The notes under the pieces: model-generated | What the model was told of the DNA's origin: nothing | What the model saw: the letters and a program-made list of their open reading frames with translations, nothing else | The model's database searches: none | Program-made: the position numbers and the translations under genes | Assembly: GCA_021827645.1 (NCBI GenBank) | Contig: JAKAVA010000103.1 | Coordinates: forward strand, 22,382 to 86,381 | Direction of reading: 5' to 3' | Source: Planctomycetota bacterium | GTDB taxonomy: Bacteria; Planctomycetota; Phycisphaerae; WQYP01 | DNA length: 64,000 nt | Shown here: positions 6,604 to 47,561 of the stretch, piece by piece | Position numbering within the stretch: position 1 is the first letter of the stretch | How the letters are laid out: each line of letters starts with the position of its first letter

Positions 6604-8805
6604 TTAGACTTGCAGGGTTTCATGCATTTCCGGTAGGCAGAGTTGATCGTTACACAAGGTGTAATGTACCAGCAGTTTTCGGGGGCTATCTGTCGAAGTG
6701 GGCGCCGGCAAATCAATCGTGAAATGGCGCACTTGATCGCTCCGCTCACCCGATTCGCCGGCGGTCTCAAGAGCTTTTACGGGGAGCGATGCCGAAACAT
6801 TCGGCGTTTCAGCCGTCTGCATCCGAACCTCAGGCACCTGCATCAATTTGAACGGATGCGACAAACGGGCCTCGATGACCACTCGCAAACCGCCATGATC
6901 AAGCGGATGCGCCGAGGTGATCTGCCATGTGGCCCGCCGCGGGGCGGAATTTGCGATCGGATGGCGAATCAGAGCGCCCAGCAAGGTGGCGGAGCCAACC
7001 GGATAATTGCCGGTGATCGGCAGAATGCACTCGAGGGCGCGGCGTGCCCGATCCGCATAACGCGATGTGCGTTGGATGTGATCAATATCAAGCATGGCAC
7101 TGATAAGGACGGCGGAAGCGCTTGGAGCGACATGATCAAAATCCGCCCGCATCTGCTTGAGCGGACTTCCATGCAAATCAGCGGACGTGAAGAGTTCACC
7201 GGCGGTGCCGCCAAAGAGTTCCAACGCGCTGTCGATTATCCGTCCTGCCAGCGCCAGAGTCTGCTCTGAGTCCTGCGGGTTGTGGGCGGCCCAATCAATC
7301 AATCCACGTGCCAGGTAGGCGTAATCATCCAAAAAACCGGGGCCGAGTGTGTTATTTCCGCATGTTCCACGCAAGACCGAACCGGTCGATGAGATCAGGC
7401 GGGTGTTGAGAGCGGAAAGCAGGCGTGCGCCCGCATCGTAAAAGCGGCGGCCGTTTTCAAGTCGCATGGCATGGGAGAGTGCCGAGAGCATCAAACCGTT
7501 CCACGCAGTAATAATTTTTTCATCGATAGCCGGTGCGGGACGTCGGCGACGGACGGATTCGAGGCGGTTCATCAATTCCGGCCAGCGCGGATCAAGCCAA
7601 AGGTCGGGCAGATCACGCCCGTGGCCCCCCACTTGCAGCACATGGGTTCCCTCCCAGTTCCCATACGGGGCAATATCCAGAACTTGTCGGGCAAAATCAA
7701 AAAGTTGAGGCTCATCGGCAAGCACTTCTGTGAGTTGCTGCCAAGTCCACGTGTAATATCGCCCTTCATGGCCTTCGCTGTCGGCGTCCATCGAACTCCA
7801 GAGCAGTCCGTCGGTGGACGACATATCCCGCAGCCAGAAATCGATGATCCGCTCGGCGGTCCAGGCATAATCACGCCGTTGCAAGAGCAGGGCGGCACGG
7901 GCGTATATTTGCGCCAGTTGTGCGTTGTCGTAGAGCATTTTCTCAAAGTGCGGCACATGCCAGCATTCATCGGTGCTGTAGCGTGCAAAGCCCCCGCCCA
8001 CCAGATCGTGAATTCCACCCCATTGCATGGAGTCCAGCGTGAGGGTGAGCATCGGCCCGGCGCGCCTGATTCGGTCCGTGATGGCCGGTGGAAAATCCGA
8101 TGTGCCGGTATCTGACATCTCCAGCAGCTGAGTCCAGAGCAGAAGTATCTGGTGGGGTGGAAATTTTGGACGTCCACGGAAGCCTCCATTATCCGCATCA
8201 AAGCGTTTTTCCGCATCATCCAACACCGCCGTCGGTAATTCGGACGGCTCGATATGATGGTGAATGGAGGTGTGGCGGATCGCCTGTTCCAAGGCGTGCC
8301 ATATTTCATCCGCCTGCTCCAGTAACGCGCGGCGATGTTTCCGCCATGCTGCCGATATGGATTCAATCAACCGGCGAAATCCGGGCCGGCCGCGGGTATC
8401 GTCCGGGGGGAAATAGGTTCCGGCATAAAACGGCTTGAGTTCCGGGGTCAGCCAGACACTCATCGGCCATCCGCCGGAACCGGATAATAACTGGGTTGCG
8501 AGCATATACGCTTCATCAATATCGGGGCGTTCCTCGCGGTCAACTTTAATATTGACAAAGTTCGCATTCATCTGTTGTGCGATCGAGGCATTCTGAAACA
8601 CCTCATGCTGCATGACATGGCACCAGTGGCATGCGGCATAGCCGACGGAAAGAAAAATGGGAACATCCCGCTGTTTTGCCTCGGCGATCGCTTCGGAATT
8701 CCATGGTCGCCAGTCAACCGGGTCGGCGGCGTGCTGACGCAGATAGGGACTGGCGGCATTTCTCAGGAAGTTCAATTCGGTCTTCATCTGATCTGGCATA
8801 TGCAT
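6604..8805 (-). CDS. Thioredoxin-fold protein of the YyaL/DUF255 (SSP411) family
   Basis: Large protein of about 733 residues. The N-terminal domain is thioredoxin-like with the family pattern NFLRNAASPYLRQHAADPVDW and a redox CxxC in ACHWCHVMQHEVF. It is followed by a long alpha/alpha-barrel region resembling glycosidase or epimerase folds (GGIHDLVGGGFARYSTDECW, HFEKMLYDNAQL). The biochemical role of this widespread family is not settled. ATG 8805 (MHMPDQMKTEL) is preferred to the track start at 8853, since the homologous region begins close after it. It is transcribed away from the LOG-family gene. Confidence 0.9.
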   Translation of the reverse strand: MHMPDQMKTELNFLRNAASPYLRQHAADPVDWRPWNSEAIAEAKQRDVPIFLSVGYAACHWCHVMQHEVFQNASIAQQMNANFVNIKVDREERPDIDEAYMLATQLLSGSGGWPMSVWLTPELKPFYAGTYFPPDDTRGRPGFRRLIESISAAWRKHRRALLEQADEIWHALEQAIRHTSIHHHIEPSELPTAVLDDAEKRFDADNGGFRGRPKFPPHQILLLWTQLLEMSDTGTSDFPPAITDRIRRAGPMLTLTLDSMQWGGIHDLVGGGFARYSTDECWHVPHFEKMLYDNAQLAQIYARAALLLQRRDYAWTAERIIDFWLRDMSSTDGLLWSSMDADSEGHEGRYYTWTWQQLTEVLADEPQLFDFARQVLDIAPYGNWEGTHVLQVGGHGRDLPDLWLDPRWPELMNRLESVRRRRPAPAIDEKIITAWNGLMLSALSHAMRLENGRRFYDAGARLLSALNTRLISSTGSVLRGTCGNNTLGPGFLDDYAYLARGLIDWAAHNPQDSEQTLALAGRIIDSALELFGGTAGELFTSADLHGSPLKQMRADFDHVAPSASAVLISAMLDIDHIQRTSRYADRARRALECILPITGNYPVGSATLLGALIRHPIANSAPRRATWQITSAHPLDHGGLRVVIEARLSHPFKLMQVPEVRMQTAETPNVSASLPVKALETAGESGERSDQVRHFTIDLPAPTSTDSPRKLLVHYTLCNDQLCLPEMHETLQV

Positions 8806-43735: not shown

Positions 43736-44191
43736 GTGCGGTTGAGGTGCGTCTTGCTGACGAGTCTGTTCATCTGGTTCACCCATCCGACCGCCAATCG
43801 CGTCATCCTGATGTTGCTTACCGTTCTGCTGGCCGGGTGCTCGGTGCTGATCGTCCCGTGCCTGCTTGCCGCGATCATGATGTTTGATGCACCCGGTTCC
43901 ACCCGGCGTCTGCTGCCGTGGGCAGTCTTGGGCATTACTTTTTTCTGGCCGGTTGTGATGCTTGCCGGTGCCATCATGGCCTATGTGTGCCTCGCGGCCC
44001 ACCATCCTGTCTGGGCCTATGTGTCGATTGGAGTTCCGCTGCTTCCATTTGTGGCGTTGATGGCGATATTAAGCCGATCCAAAATTCGGGCGGGTCGTAC
44101 CGACGGTCGGTTGCCCAAACCACCAACAGGTCCCCTACCCGATGCCAGTGACGGCCAACCGCGCAAGACCGTGGAATCTGAGCCGGACTGA
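43736..44191 (+). CDS. Three-helix membrane protein upstream of merR
   Basis: 151 residues with three hydrophobic helices (ILMLLTVLLAGCSVLIVPCLL, WAVLGITFFWPVVMLAGAIMAYV, YVSIGVPLLPFVALMAIL) and a polar, basic C-terminal tail. No family recognised. GTG 43736 is the first start; a TTG at 43754 is another choice. Its stop overlaps an ATG of the next frame (TGATG), so the gene may be transcribed together with merR. Confidence 0.55.
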   Translation: MRLRCVLLTSLFIWFTHPTANRVILMLLTVLLAGCSVLIVPCLLAAIMMFDAPGSTRRLLPWAVLGITFFWPVVMLAGAIMAYVCLAAHHPVWAYVSIGVPLLPFVALMAILSRSKIRAGRTDGRLPKPPTGPLPDASDGQPRKTVESEPD

Positions 44192-44277
44192 TGACTGTTC
44201 CTGCGCCCACGTTTTTACTGGATGCCCATCATTCACATGCAGCTTTCTCCCCCGACGAACCCGACCTATCATGTCAT

Positions 44278-44703
44278 ATGATGAATGGTGCAGGGCGTTA
44301 CAACATCGGACAGTTGGCCAAGGCGGCGGGCGTGCCCGTGACGACGGTGCGGTATTACGAACGCATCGGCCTGCTGCCTCCGGCCGGGCGGACGGGGAGC
44401 AACTACCGCTATTACGACCGACATTCGCTTGAACGCCTGCGATTCATCCGCCTTGCCCACGCGGGCGGCTTTTCGATCAGTGATATTCAAAGCATGCTTC
44501 AGGTGGCCAATGGCTTAAAATCGACTGCTCAGTGCCGCGAGATCGGCAATCTGATTGAGCAGCGGCTTGAGGCAGTTCGGTCGCAGATACAGGAACTCAA
44601 GCGACTGGAAAAAATTCTAACGGGCGATTTACGACTCTGTCGCGACGGCAAGCCGGGGCGCTGTGCAGTGGTGGAACAATTGCAAACCGCAGCGAAGGGT
44701 TGA
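44278..44703 (+). CDS. merR: MerR-family regulator, mercury-sensor type
   Basis: About 141 residues. N-terminal winged helix-turn-helix YNIGQLAKAAGVPVTTVRYYERIGLLPP, a long dimerisation helix, and the metal site: one Cys in AQCREIGN and a pair in LCRDGKPGRC. This one-plus-two Cys layout is that of mercury sensors (Cys82, 117 and 126 in Tn501 MerR), although the last pair is one residue closer. ATG 44278 or 44281 puts the HTH at the usual place; the track's ATG at 44191 would add 29 residues. The MerR-type operator follows 138 bases downstream, before the mer genes. Confidence 0.85.
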   Translation: MMNGAGRYNIGQLAKAAGVPVTTVRYYERIGLLPPAGRTGSNYRYYDRHSLERLRFIRLAHAGGFSISDIQSMLQVANGLKSTAQCREIGNLIEQRLEAVRSQIQELKRLEKILTGDLRLCRDGKPGRCAVVEQLQTAAKG

Positions 44704-44840: not shown

Positions 44841-44872
44841 TTGACCTTACACTATGGTGCAAGGTGTAGGAT
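44841..44872 (+). promoter_or_regulatory. MerR-type promoter-operator of the mer genes
   Basis: A -35 ttgacc at 44841-44846 and a -10 taggat at 44867-44872 are separated by 20 bases, longer than the normal 17. The imperfect dyad ccttacac-tatg-gtgcaagg (44845-44864) fills the spacer. This long-spacer architecture with a central dyad is the hallmark of promoters that MerR proteins untwist on metal binding. Confidence 0.85.
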
Positions 44873-44956
44873 TCAAGTGTGAAGTTCGCAGCGGGCTTTC
44901 GGCCCACCGACTGCGGGCGCTGCTTTCATCTGGCCGGCGAAATTAAGGAGCTTTTT

Positions 44957-45193
44957 ATGAAAAGCGCGCTATTGAATGTTGCGGGTGCGATGCTGATCGC
45001 AGGGTTGGGATTTTCGGGATTGGCTATGTCGCCGGTGGCGGCAGGCGCGATCCTTGGGGGTTCCGGACGGGTGACATCGACAATCTCGACGGCCTCGAAA
45101 TGCAAAAATCCGAAATGCAATCCAAAAGACCCCAAGAGCCAGCCGCCGGGATGCAAGGGTCCGCACTGCACCGCGCCAGGCTGCTGCCAATAA
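44957..45193 (+). CDS. Small exported Cys-rich protein of the mer operon
   Basis: 78 residues with a signal peptide (MKSALLNVAGAMLIAGLGFSGLA) and a Cys-rich end: CKNPKCNPKDPKSQPPGCKGPHCTAPGCCQ contains seven Cys. I do not know this family; the density of Cys and position between the MerR operator and merA suggest that it binds mercury outside the cytoplasmic membrane, taking the place of MerP as the first capture protein. The start follows AAGGAG (ttaaggagctttttatg). The frame is open 26 codons further back without support. Confidence 0.7.
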   Translation: MKSALLNVAGAMLIAGLGFSGLAMSPVAAGAILGGSGRVTSTISTASKCKNPKCNPKDPKSQPPGCKGPHCTAPGCCQ

Positions 45194-45313
45194 AAAGAGT
45201 CGGTCCGCCGGGACCGTGCAGGCGCTTCGTCCATGACGCCTGCGCGGTTCCTGTGGGCTGGAGTTGATTTTCCATACTCGTACACCGCGGACTCCGCGGA
45301 GAAATGTTTTTTT

Positions 45314-46753
45314 ATGACGTCATGCTGTGAGATCACGAAATCCCAAGACGCCGCCGGAAAGCTCATCATCATCGGTGGTGGTTCGGCGGCATTTGCCGCC
45401 GCTACGCGGGCGGTGGAATTGGGGGCCGAGAGGGTCACCATCATCAATTCGGGCCTGCCGACCGGTGGCACGTGCGTCAACGTCGGGTGCGTTCCATCCA
45501 AAACGCTGATTCGGGCGGCGGAATCGTTGCACCGCGCCAAAAGCAATCCGTTTGCGGGAATAAAGACGGGTGGATCGTTGGCGGATTTTTCCACCGTTAT
45601 TCAGGAAAAGCGGCAACTGGTGGCGGAAATGCGGCAAGCCAAATATGTTAATGTGATCCGCGACCTGCCACAGGTTGAACTGATTCACGGACGCGCTCAA
45701 CTCCTTGGTGCAGGCAGCGTGCAGGCTGGAAATCGCCATCTTTCGGCGGAGCATCTGATCATCGCCACCGGCGCCACCCCGGCGATTCCGCCGGTACCGG
45801 GCCTTGTGGACGCGGGGTATCTGACCAATGAATCAGCCTTTGAGCTTGAAACCCTTCCGGAATCATTAATTGTTCTGGGCGGGCGATACATCGCCCTGGA
45901 ATGTGCTCAGATGTTTGCACGATTCGGCAGTCGGGTGACGGTGCTCCAGCGCTCAGATCATATCCTACCGACCGAAACCGAGGATATCACGGATGCCCTT
46001 GCGGGTTATCTCAAGGCCGAGGGAATGGAGATTCATACGGGTGTGAAGATTGAACGCGTTGACCGCAGCGATGCGGGCGTGACGGTGAAGGCGGTCATTC
46101 ATGGGGAAAGACGCACCATCACCGCAGCACAGATATTGGTAGCGACTGGCCGCAGGCCCAATACGGGCGATTTTGGTTTGGCAGCCGCGGGCGTACAGCT
46201 TGATGAATACGGGTTTATCAAGGTAAGCCCGACGCTGGAAACCTCGCAGGCTGGCATCTGGGCGGCGGGGGATGTGATCGGCGGGAACATGTTCGTGTAT
46301 ACGGCGGCATACGAGGGGGCGCTGGCGGCGGAAAATGCCCTCACCGGCGCTAGGCGCAAAACCGATTACACCGCCCTGCCGTGGGTGATTTTCACTGATC
46401 CACAATTCTGCGGCGTGGGCATGGATGAGCGGCAGGCGACGGCAGCGGGGTACGATGCCGAAGTGGCCAGCTTATCTCTTGACCATGTGCCGCGAGCGGC
46501 TGCGGCCCGTGATACCCGCGGTCTGATCAAACTGATCCGTGATAAGCAGACAGATCTGCTGCTGGGTGCCCGGATTCTGGCTCCGGAAGGTGCGGAATTA
46601 TTGATGGAATTGGCCCTGGCGATCAAATTTGGTATTACCGTGCGGCAGATTCGCGAAAGCTTCCATCCCTATCTGACACTGGGCGAAGGAATCAAGCTGG
46701 CGGCAATTACGTTTGAGAAGGATGTGGCGCAACTGAGCTGCTGCGCCAACTGA
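45314..46753 (+). CDS. merA: Mercuric reductase without N-terminal HMA domain
   Basis: 479-residue flavoprotein disulfide oxidoreductase that reduces Hg(II) to volatile Hg(0) with NADPH. FAD-binding IIIGGGSAAFAAA, redox pair Cys 54/Cys 59 in GTCVNVGCVPSK, NAD-binding VLGGRYIALECAQM, ATGRRPN, and the mercury-specific C-terminal vicinal pair LSCCAN that passes Hg(II) to the active site. The pair separates it from dihydrolipoamide dehydrogenases. The N-terminal HMA domain is replaced by a short segment with CC at residues 4-5. Start ATG 45314. Confidence 0.95.
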   Translation: MTSCCEITKSQDAAGKLIIIGGGSAAFAAATRAVELGAERVTIINSGLPTGGTCVNVGCVPSKTLIRAAESLHRAKSNPFAGIKTGGSLADFSTVIQEKRQLVAEMRQAKYVNVIRDLPQVELIHGRAQLLGAGSVQAGNRHLSAEHLIIATGATPAIPPVPGLVDAGYLTNESAFELETLPESLIVLGGRYIALECAQMFARFGSRVTVLQRSDHILPTETEDITDALAGYLKAEGMEIHTGVKIERVDRSDAGVTVKAVIHGERRTITAAQILVATGRRPNTGDFGLAAAGVQLDEYGFIKVSPTLETSQAGIWAAGDVIGGNMFVYTAAYEGALAAENALTGARRKTDYTALPWVIFTDPQFCGVGMDERQATAAGYDAEVASLSLDHVPRAAAARDTRGLIKLIRDKQTDLLLGARILAPEGAELLMELALAIKFGITVRQIRESFHPYLTLGEGIKLAAITFEKDVAQLSCCAN

Positions 46754-46781: not shown

Positions 46782-47561
46782 ATGATGAACATGCAGAATC
46801 CATCTGATCGCACCGGCGGCGAGAGCTGCTGCACGCCGCAGGGCCCATCGGCGGGACCCAATCCGAATCCGAGCACGCCGAAAACCTGGTCGGCGGGTGT
46901 GGTGGCCATTGTGGCCTCCATCCTGGCTTCCGCCTGCTGCTGGTTGCCGCTCGCCCTGCTGGGGCTTGGCCTTTCGGCGGCGGGGCTTGCGAAATTGATT
47001 ATTGGCGCACGGTGGGTTTTTGTGGCGGTTGCGGGGATCGCGCTGGGGCTGGGCTTTTATTTCAGCTACCGACGCAGAGCGGCGTGCGCACCGGGTGAGG
47101 CCTGTGCCCCCAGCGCATTGGCACGTTTCAACCGCGTGATGTTGTGGGTATCGGCTGTGCTGGTGGTTGCGTTTGCCACATTTCCCTATTACAGCGCTCC
47201 GCTGCAGAAAGCTTTTGGCGGTAGTTCCAGCTCCGGCGATCATGCAAAACTGGTGACGGCTTCAGGCGCCGGCCCTTCCAACCGCCCCACCGGGACCAAT
47301 GGATCACACACCGCGACGACAAATTTGAACGTGCTGCACATTTATGCATTTCATATTTCAGGCATGGACTGTCAGGAGTGTGCCAATGGCCTGCAGGGTT
47401 CCATCGCAGCGCTGCGCGGCGTGAAATCAGCGAAGGTGTCGTTTGCCAAAAGGACGGCGGTGGTCAAAGCGGACGGCGAATTTAATCCCCAAAACCTGAT
47501 CCACCGGATCACCGGCGTCGGCTATAAAACCACGCTGATATCCCCGGCGGCGAAACGGTAA
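46782..47561 (+). CDS. merT: Mercury transporter MerT fused to a MerP-like HMA domain
   Basis: 259 residues. Three transmembrane helices, the first with a vicinal pair (LASACCWLPLALLGLG) and the cytoplasmic loop with CAPGEAC, as in MerT. After a linker rich in Ser/Gly/Thr comes a heavy-metal-associated domain with GMDCQECANGL (GMxCxxC) like MerP. An extra CC occurs near the N-terminus (GESCCTPQG). It imports Hg(II) for MerA. Starts are ATG 46782 or 46785; the second is better spaced from GAGG. Fusions of MerT and MerP are known; here it lies last in the operon. Confidence 0.9.
   Translation: MMNMQNPSDRTGGESCCTPQGPSAGPNPNPSTPKTWSAGVVAIVASILASACCWLPLALLGLGLSAAGLAKLIIGARWVFVAVAGIALGLGFYFSYRRRAACAPGEACAPSALARFNRVMLWVSAVLVVAFATFPYYSAPLQKAFGGSSSSGDHAKLVTASGAGPSNRPTGTNGSHTATTNLNVLHIYAFHISGMDCQECANGLQGSIAALRGVKSAKVSFAKRTAVVKADGEFNPQNLIHRITGVGYKTTLISPAAKR

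Follow-up and report, generated by a model that had tools for sequence, protein, structure and literature searches.

A conserved export-type cysteine-rich protein encoded in mer and other MerR-controlled loci of one family of Planctomycetota

The window, i.e., the whole stretch of 64,000 nt that was analyzed, belongs to a Planctomycetota bacterium (GCA_021827645.1, contig JAKAVA010000103.1) and carries a mer locus in the order merR-type gene, MerR-type promoter, a short open reading frame (44957-45193, forward strand, as are all window features below; its protein is called X in the following), merA and a merT-merP fusion gene. The regulator gene (44191-44703, 170 aa as called) has mercury MerR as its best family match, with 101 bits against TIGR02051 and thus under the cut-off of 150.85, and its product has three cysteines at the positions expected of a metal-binding MerR. 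The MerR-type promoter/operator (44841-44872) consists of TTGACC, a 20-bp spacer with the dyad ACCTTACAC-TATG-GTGCAAGGT, and TAGGAT, and the reading frame of X lies right behind it, as a preliminary description of this DNA had stated. The gene merA (45314-46753) encodes a mercuric reductase with 538.6 bits to TIGR02053 (cut-off 454.45), and the fusion gene (46782-47561) combines a MerT domain with a C-terminal HMA domain, matching PF02411 and PF00403 above the cut-offs.

X is an export-type protein of 78 aa with two CX4C pairs and a terminal CC, and all six cysteines (C49, C54, C66, C71, C76 and C77) are located inside 29 residues of a Pro/Lys-rich tail. According to a simple rule-based check the N-terminus is of the export type with a basic start, a hydrophobic core and small residues at the cleavage site, and a Shine-Dalgarno sequence AAGGAG (44945-44950) is positioned six bases upstream of the ATG. 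The preliminary description was accurate for the coordinates, the export-type N-terminus and the motifs CKNPKC, GCKGPHC and GCCQ, whereas its count of seven cysteines has to be corrected to six. A longer reading of 104 aa from a GTG at 44879 was rejected because this start is too near the expected transcription start and has no Shine-Dalgarno sequence, whereas the ATG has one. AlphaFold2 with an 11-row alignment revealed no confident fold (mean pLDDT 51.8), a result that would fit a peptide becoming ordered only once metal is bound, but that does not count as evidence of such a peptide.

A search of X against Pfam and NCBIfam (E<=1) and of 11 members against Pfam (E<=0.1) assigned no family, and X had no relative among PDB sequences. 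In detail, PF00403 and TIGR02052 matched neither X nor the other members, a metallothionein profile was found neither for X (Pfam, NCBIfam, E<=1) nor for the 11 members (Pfam, E<=0.1), DUF2946 was without Pfam match for X or the members, and TRASH without Pfam match for X. The G156 member gave no tblastn match in plasmid records, and we found no report of an X-like protein in the open-access full-text literature. This agrees with the earlier remark that no mer protein of this type is recognised.

The composition of X by itself could be a result of chance, and 4 of 60 Markov-shuffled windows yielded at least one signal-like reading frame of 50-130 aa with six cysteines in 31 residues. We do not regard X as a product of chance, since homologues that evolve under purifying selection occupy the same place in other genomes. 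Profile searches recovered 12 copies in 8 of 28 genomes of the same GTDB family, window included, with E-values of 1e-15 to 1e-29; matches were retained only when an E-value <1e-4 in this search was accompanied by supporting context. Values of dN/dS between members are 0.17-0.58 in all measurable pairs but two (0.68 in a distant pair and 0.85 in a pair with few changes), some pairs being saturated in this comparison. Three residues (C49, C54 and P74) are invariant in the 11-row alignment and five more (M1, K2, A9, G75 and C76) nearly so, many members end in a conserved PGCC, and the number of cysteines varies from 4 to 8. The Shine-Dalgarno sequence and the position are consistent across the copies. 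Taken together, the profile matches, the dN/dS values and the invariant residues show that X is a real protein family conserved within one bacterial family. Two sets of candidates were discarded: an initial protein search across the class gave matches in 242 of 298 genomes at E<=1, almost all of them by chance, and G014:C132 (E 3e-4) was not counted as X with its two cysteines and lack of mer context.

All 12 copies are the first gene behind a MerR-type promoter, the promoter layout of the window is repeated upstream of every homologue, and the 29-base promoter core is identical before the X gene of G073. In seven loci the X gene is located immediately 5' of merA (window, G156:C57, G144:C163, G024:C37, G138:C104, G168:C478 and G073:C289), so that at these seven loci, spread over several genomes, X is a component of the mer operon, in the same orientation as merA and downstream of a MerR-type promoter. 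In G168:C478 a second copy is present farther upstream in the locus, past a TlpA-HMA gene. In G144:C48 the X gene is followed by a merA remnant comprising the C-terminal end only, and then by merTP. Three further copies (G047:C117, G047:C57 and G168:C53) carry TTGACTCCGTAC-like promoters and are followed by a second merR gene and no merA; beyond the second merR gene of G047:C117 a heavy-metal P-type ATPase is encoded. These second regulators also have mercury MerR as best match (130 bits, under the cut-off of 150.85). Absence from all other mer loci, which the preliminary description had named, together with a lack of metal binding, as speaking against its proposal, did not occur, X being found beside merA in other genomes, and its idea of a new mer-locus protein holds with the exception of the cysteine number: X is conserved, export-type, Cys-rich, without known family and has its copies in mer or MerR-controlled metal loci.

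Some of these loci show signs of decay. The merA remnant between X and merTP in G144:C48 (L137:2857-3000) points to a decayed mer operon, and the mer locus of G138 looks damaged, with the MerT and MerP parts split over two reading frames (L104:2126-2914 (-) and L104:4532-4855 (-)) and the terminal GCC of its X lost through a frame change. A separate feature of relatives' mer loci are genes for TlpA/ResA-like thiol oxidoreductases (L097:5395-6429 (-), L137:1359-2414 and L092:4424-5467 (-)) with their own MerR-type promoter, an HMA-like domain being detected in the L097 copy; the window's genome contains no full-length copy.

MerA above the cut-off is encoded in 11 of the 28 genomes of the GTDB family, and X is missing from the mer loci of G097:C35, G004:C78 and G024:C44, which are near-identical, as well as from those of G114:C32, G047:C113 and G162. 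In G085:C283 the leader, the intergenic hairpins and merA are retained and X is cleanly excised between leader and hairpins, which argues that at least one loss of X is derived. Since several mer operons of close relatives are without X or have it deleted, X is not indispensable and is an accessory of mer loci. A MerA tree, from which four sequences were left out, did not resolve whether X is ancestral. The three near-identical loci (L099, L100 and L101) encode identical MerA in genomes of three genera, which reflects either a transfer that happened recently or contamination of the MAGs during binning. At L060:3986-4987 / L149:1570-2571 a truncated merA continues without a change of frame into the sequence of an HMA domain, as would result from an internal deletion that joined merA to the 3' part of merTP. 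Outside the GTDB family, 21 loci (L038-L061 without L040, L050 and L060) contained no convincing case of a similar exported Cys reading frame beside merA, and a search across the wider phylum (392 genomes, E<=1e-4) recovered only the window itself, with 15 candidates scored per genome, so that distant copies could escape. The family has so far been seen only in metal-resistance gene clusters of one bacterial family.

Two conserved hairpins precede merA. A stem-loop between X and merA (45201-45260) is supported by the predicted fold in the window and the consensus fold of six relatives, among them G085, with mostly one-sided pair changes. A short hairpin beside the merA ribosome-binding region (45285-45299, predicted fold), which it covers only in part, has five pairs that recur in relatives, two of them changed on both sides. 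No T-run was seen behind the stem-loop, and we therefore interpret it as an element that affects RNA stability or tunes translation, which could make X exceed MerA in amount. Rfam returned only a chance microRNA match. Independently of these hairpins, a further element is found repeatedly in the 5' leader of mer loci, downstream of the MerR-type promoter and ahead of the first gene, whether or not X is present (L097:5172-5251 and 6897-6976 (-), L031:2186-2267, L060:3917-3996, L098:1249-1328 and others), with 11 genomes at E<=0.01, two of these matches being weak and unconvincing. The element resembles an H-type pseudoknot, in which the hairpin loop CCCGGCTT can pair with AAGCCGGG just 5' of the Shine-Dalgarno sequence, and two compensatory changes are present in G024; the leader of the window did not match the model of this element.

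With a conserved export-type Cys protein in mer and MerR-controlled metal loci, mercury binding outside the inner membrane appears to be the likeliest function. We consider it probable that X is a thiol peptide that is exported by the Sec pathway, remains largely unstructured and binds Hg(II) in the periplasm, acting as a soluble scavenger or buffer that passes the metal to MerT-MerP or holds it. MerR with Hg(II) would switch on the operon, and X, encoded first in the mRNA with a good ribosome-binding site, would be made and exported via Sec. The two CX4C pairs and the terminal CC may then bind Hg(II) outside the inner membrane, next to the membrane-tethered MerT-MerP, and the metal would either move on to the tethered HMA domain for uptake and reduction by MerA or simply be held by X. 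As MerT carries the MerP-like HMA domain in fused form, X could supply a diffusible pool, and simple buffering would serve as well as transfer. Export, mercury binding, transfer and a dose of X above MerA are all four what we infer here. This reading is supported by the 12 homologues, the purifying selection, the conserved Cys pairs and the placement before merA, together with a MerA above the curated cut-off and MerT and HMA domains in the same operon, and some relatives' loci additionally encode a TlpA-like thiol oxidoreductase that bears an HMA-like domain, which would be fitting for a need for reduced thiols. Counting against it are the variable number of cysteines (4-8), the several close mer loci that lack X, the three copies in MerR-controlled units without merA and the missing confident fold; moreover, the cysteines could form disulfides in an oxidising periplasm.

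The copies in units without merA imply that the metal could be another thiophilic one. X may thus be an exported peptide mainly for Cu(I), Ag, Cd or Pb, which is present in mer operons as metals co-occur, e.g., in mine waters. Besides these three copies followed by a second merR, one with a heavy-metal P-type ATPase farther on, the window regulator under the mercury MerR cut-off and the ACCTT..AAGGT operator arms, which we take to resemble copper-type operators, point in this direction. We regard it as rather unlikely, as seven of the 12 copies lie directly 5' of merA and one 5' of a merA remnant, and even the second regulators match mercury MerR best.

Another reading takes up the hairpins. 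The small exported Cys proteins CutF (Rhodobacter) and CruR (Bordetella) are encoded first in copper operons and sense metal while still nascent, by means of Pro motifs at the C-terminus, and in the case of CutF a stem-loop also shields the Shine-Dalgarno sequence of the next gene (PMC9973294, PMC9426467). X shares the anatomy of CutF (PMC9973294, PMC9426467) as a small protein with Sec signal, first in its operon, with a Cys motif, a Pro-rich C-terminus and a stem-loop, and the conserved hairpins before merA and the conserved PGCC end are in line with this. Hg(II) bound to nascent X might alter ribosome pausing or release, open or close the stem-loops and thereby tune merA, so that X would be a metal-sensing exported leader peptide. 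In 11 of the 12 copies, however, all cysteines are within the last 24-32 residues and would stay in the ribosome tunnel until termination; in CutF and CruR about 45 residues separate the metal site from the arrest motif, whereas the first Cys of X is located 23-31 residues before the C-terminal residue in the same number of copies. In addition, DUF2946 does not match, operons without merA can start with X as well, and G085 retains both hairpins and merA yet has lost X. Such a sensing peptide is therefore unlikely in our view, and quite unlikely is also the broader version, a mercury counterpart of CutF/CruR from an unrelated family, in which merA would be controlled via the stem-loops by the translation, export or thiol ligation of X, a post-transcriptional layer on top of the textbook MerR switch. 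It is highly improbable that X has lost its function or is a by-product, a reading frame carried in the mer transcript without useful product: an X-like composition can arise by chance, and the copies of G138 and G144:C48 have a changed C-terminus and a damaged start, respectively, but the purifying selection, the low E-values and the consistent Shine-Dalgarno sequence and position speak against it.

X adds an undescribed component to a metal resistance system that is among the best studied, and does so in a phylum with one planctomycete MerA listed in a survey of 2021 (PMC8261052). If X as a periplasmic thiol peptide indeed binds Hg(II), the diffusible carrier of the periplasm need not be a MerP with HMA fold but can be a short unfolded peptide, and naturally paired mer loci, one having X and the other lacking it (e.g., G156 and G085), allow a direct test of its role.

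In comparison with known systems, small Cys metal-trafficking proteins with a TRASH domain have been proposed for archaeal mer operons, and the parts of that paper available to us describe nothing comparable to X (PMC3466566), which differs from them by its export-type N-terminus, its bacterial origin and the lack of a TRASH match in Pfam. With CutF and CruR, X has in common that a small exported Cys protein heads a metal operon with a stem-loop ahead of the next gene, but its cysteines are at the extreme C-terminus, DUF2946 is missing and it is also found in operons without merA. Bacterial metallothioneins are likewise short Cys-rich thiol metal sinks, whereas X is of the export type, does not match their profile and has its cysteines spaced as CX4C and CC. 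SilE is a periplasmic silver-binding protein, and X would resemble it in being an exported, disordered buffer of metal that is encoded in a resistance locus, with Cys in place of the Met/His that SilE uses for Ag(I). MerP, the periplasmic Hg(II) scavenger, is similar in being small, exported and mer-encoded, with Cys pairs for Hg(II) that would serve MerT; X, in contrast, has neither the HMA fold nor the GMxCxxC motif and carries six cysteines in a Pro/Lys-rich tail, and its operon already contains a MerP-like domain, fused to MerT. X represents a new protein family with no known relatives, whose likeliest role is a known kind of task.
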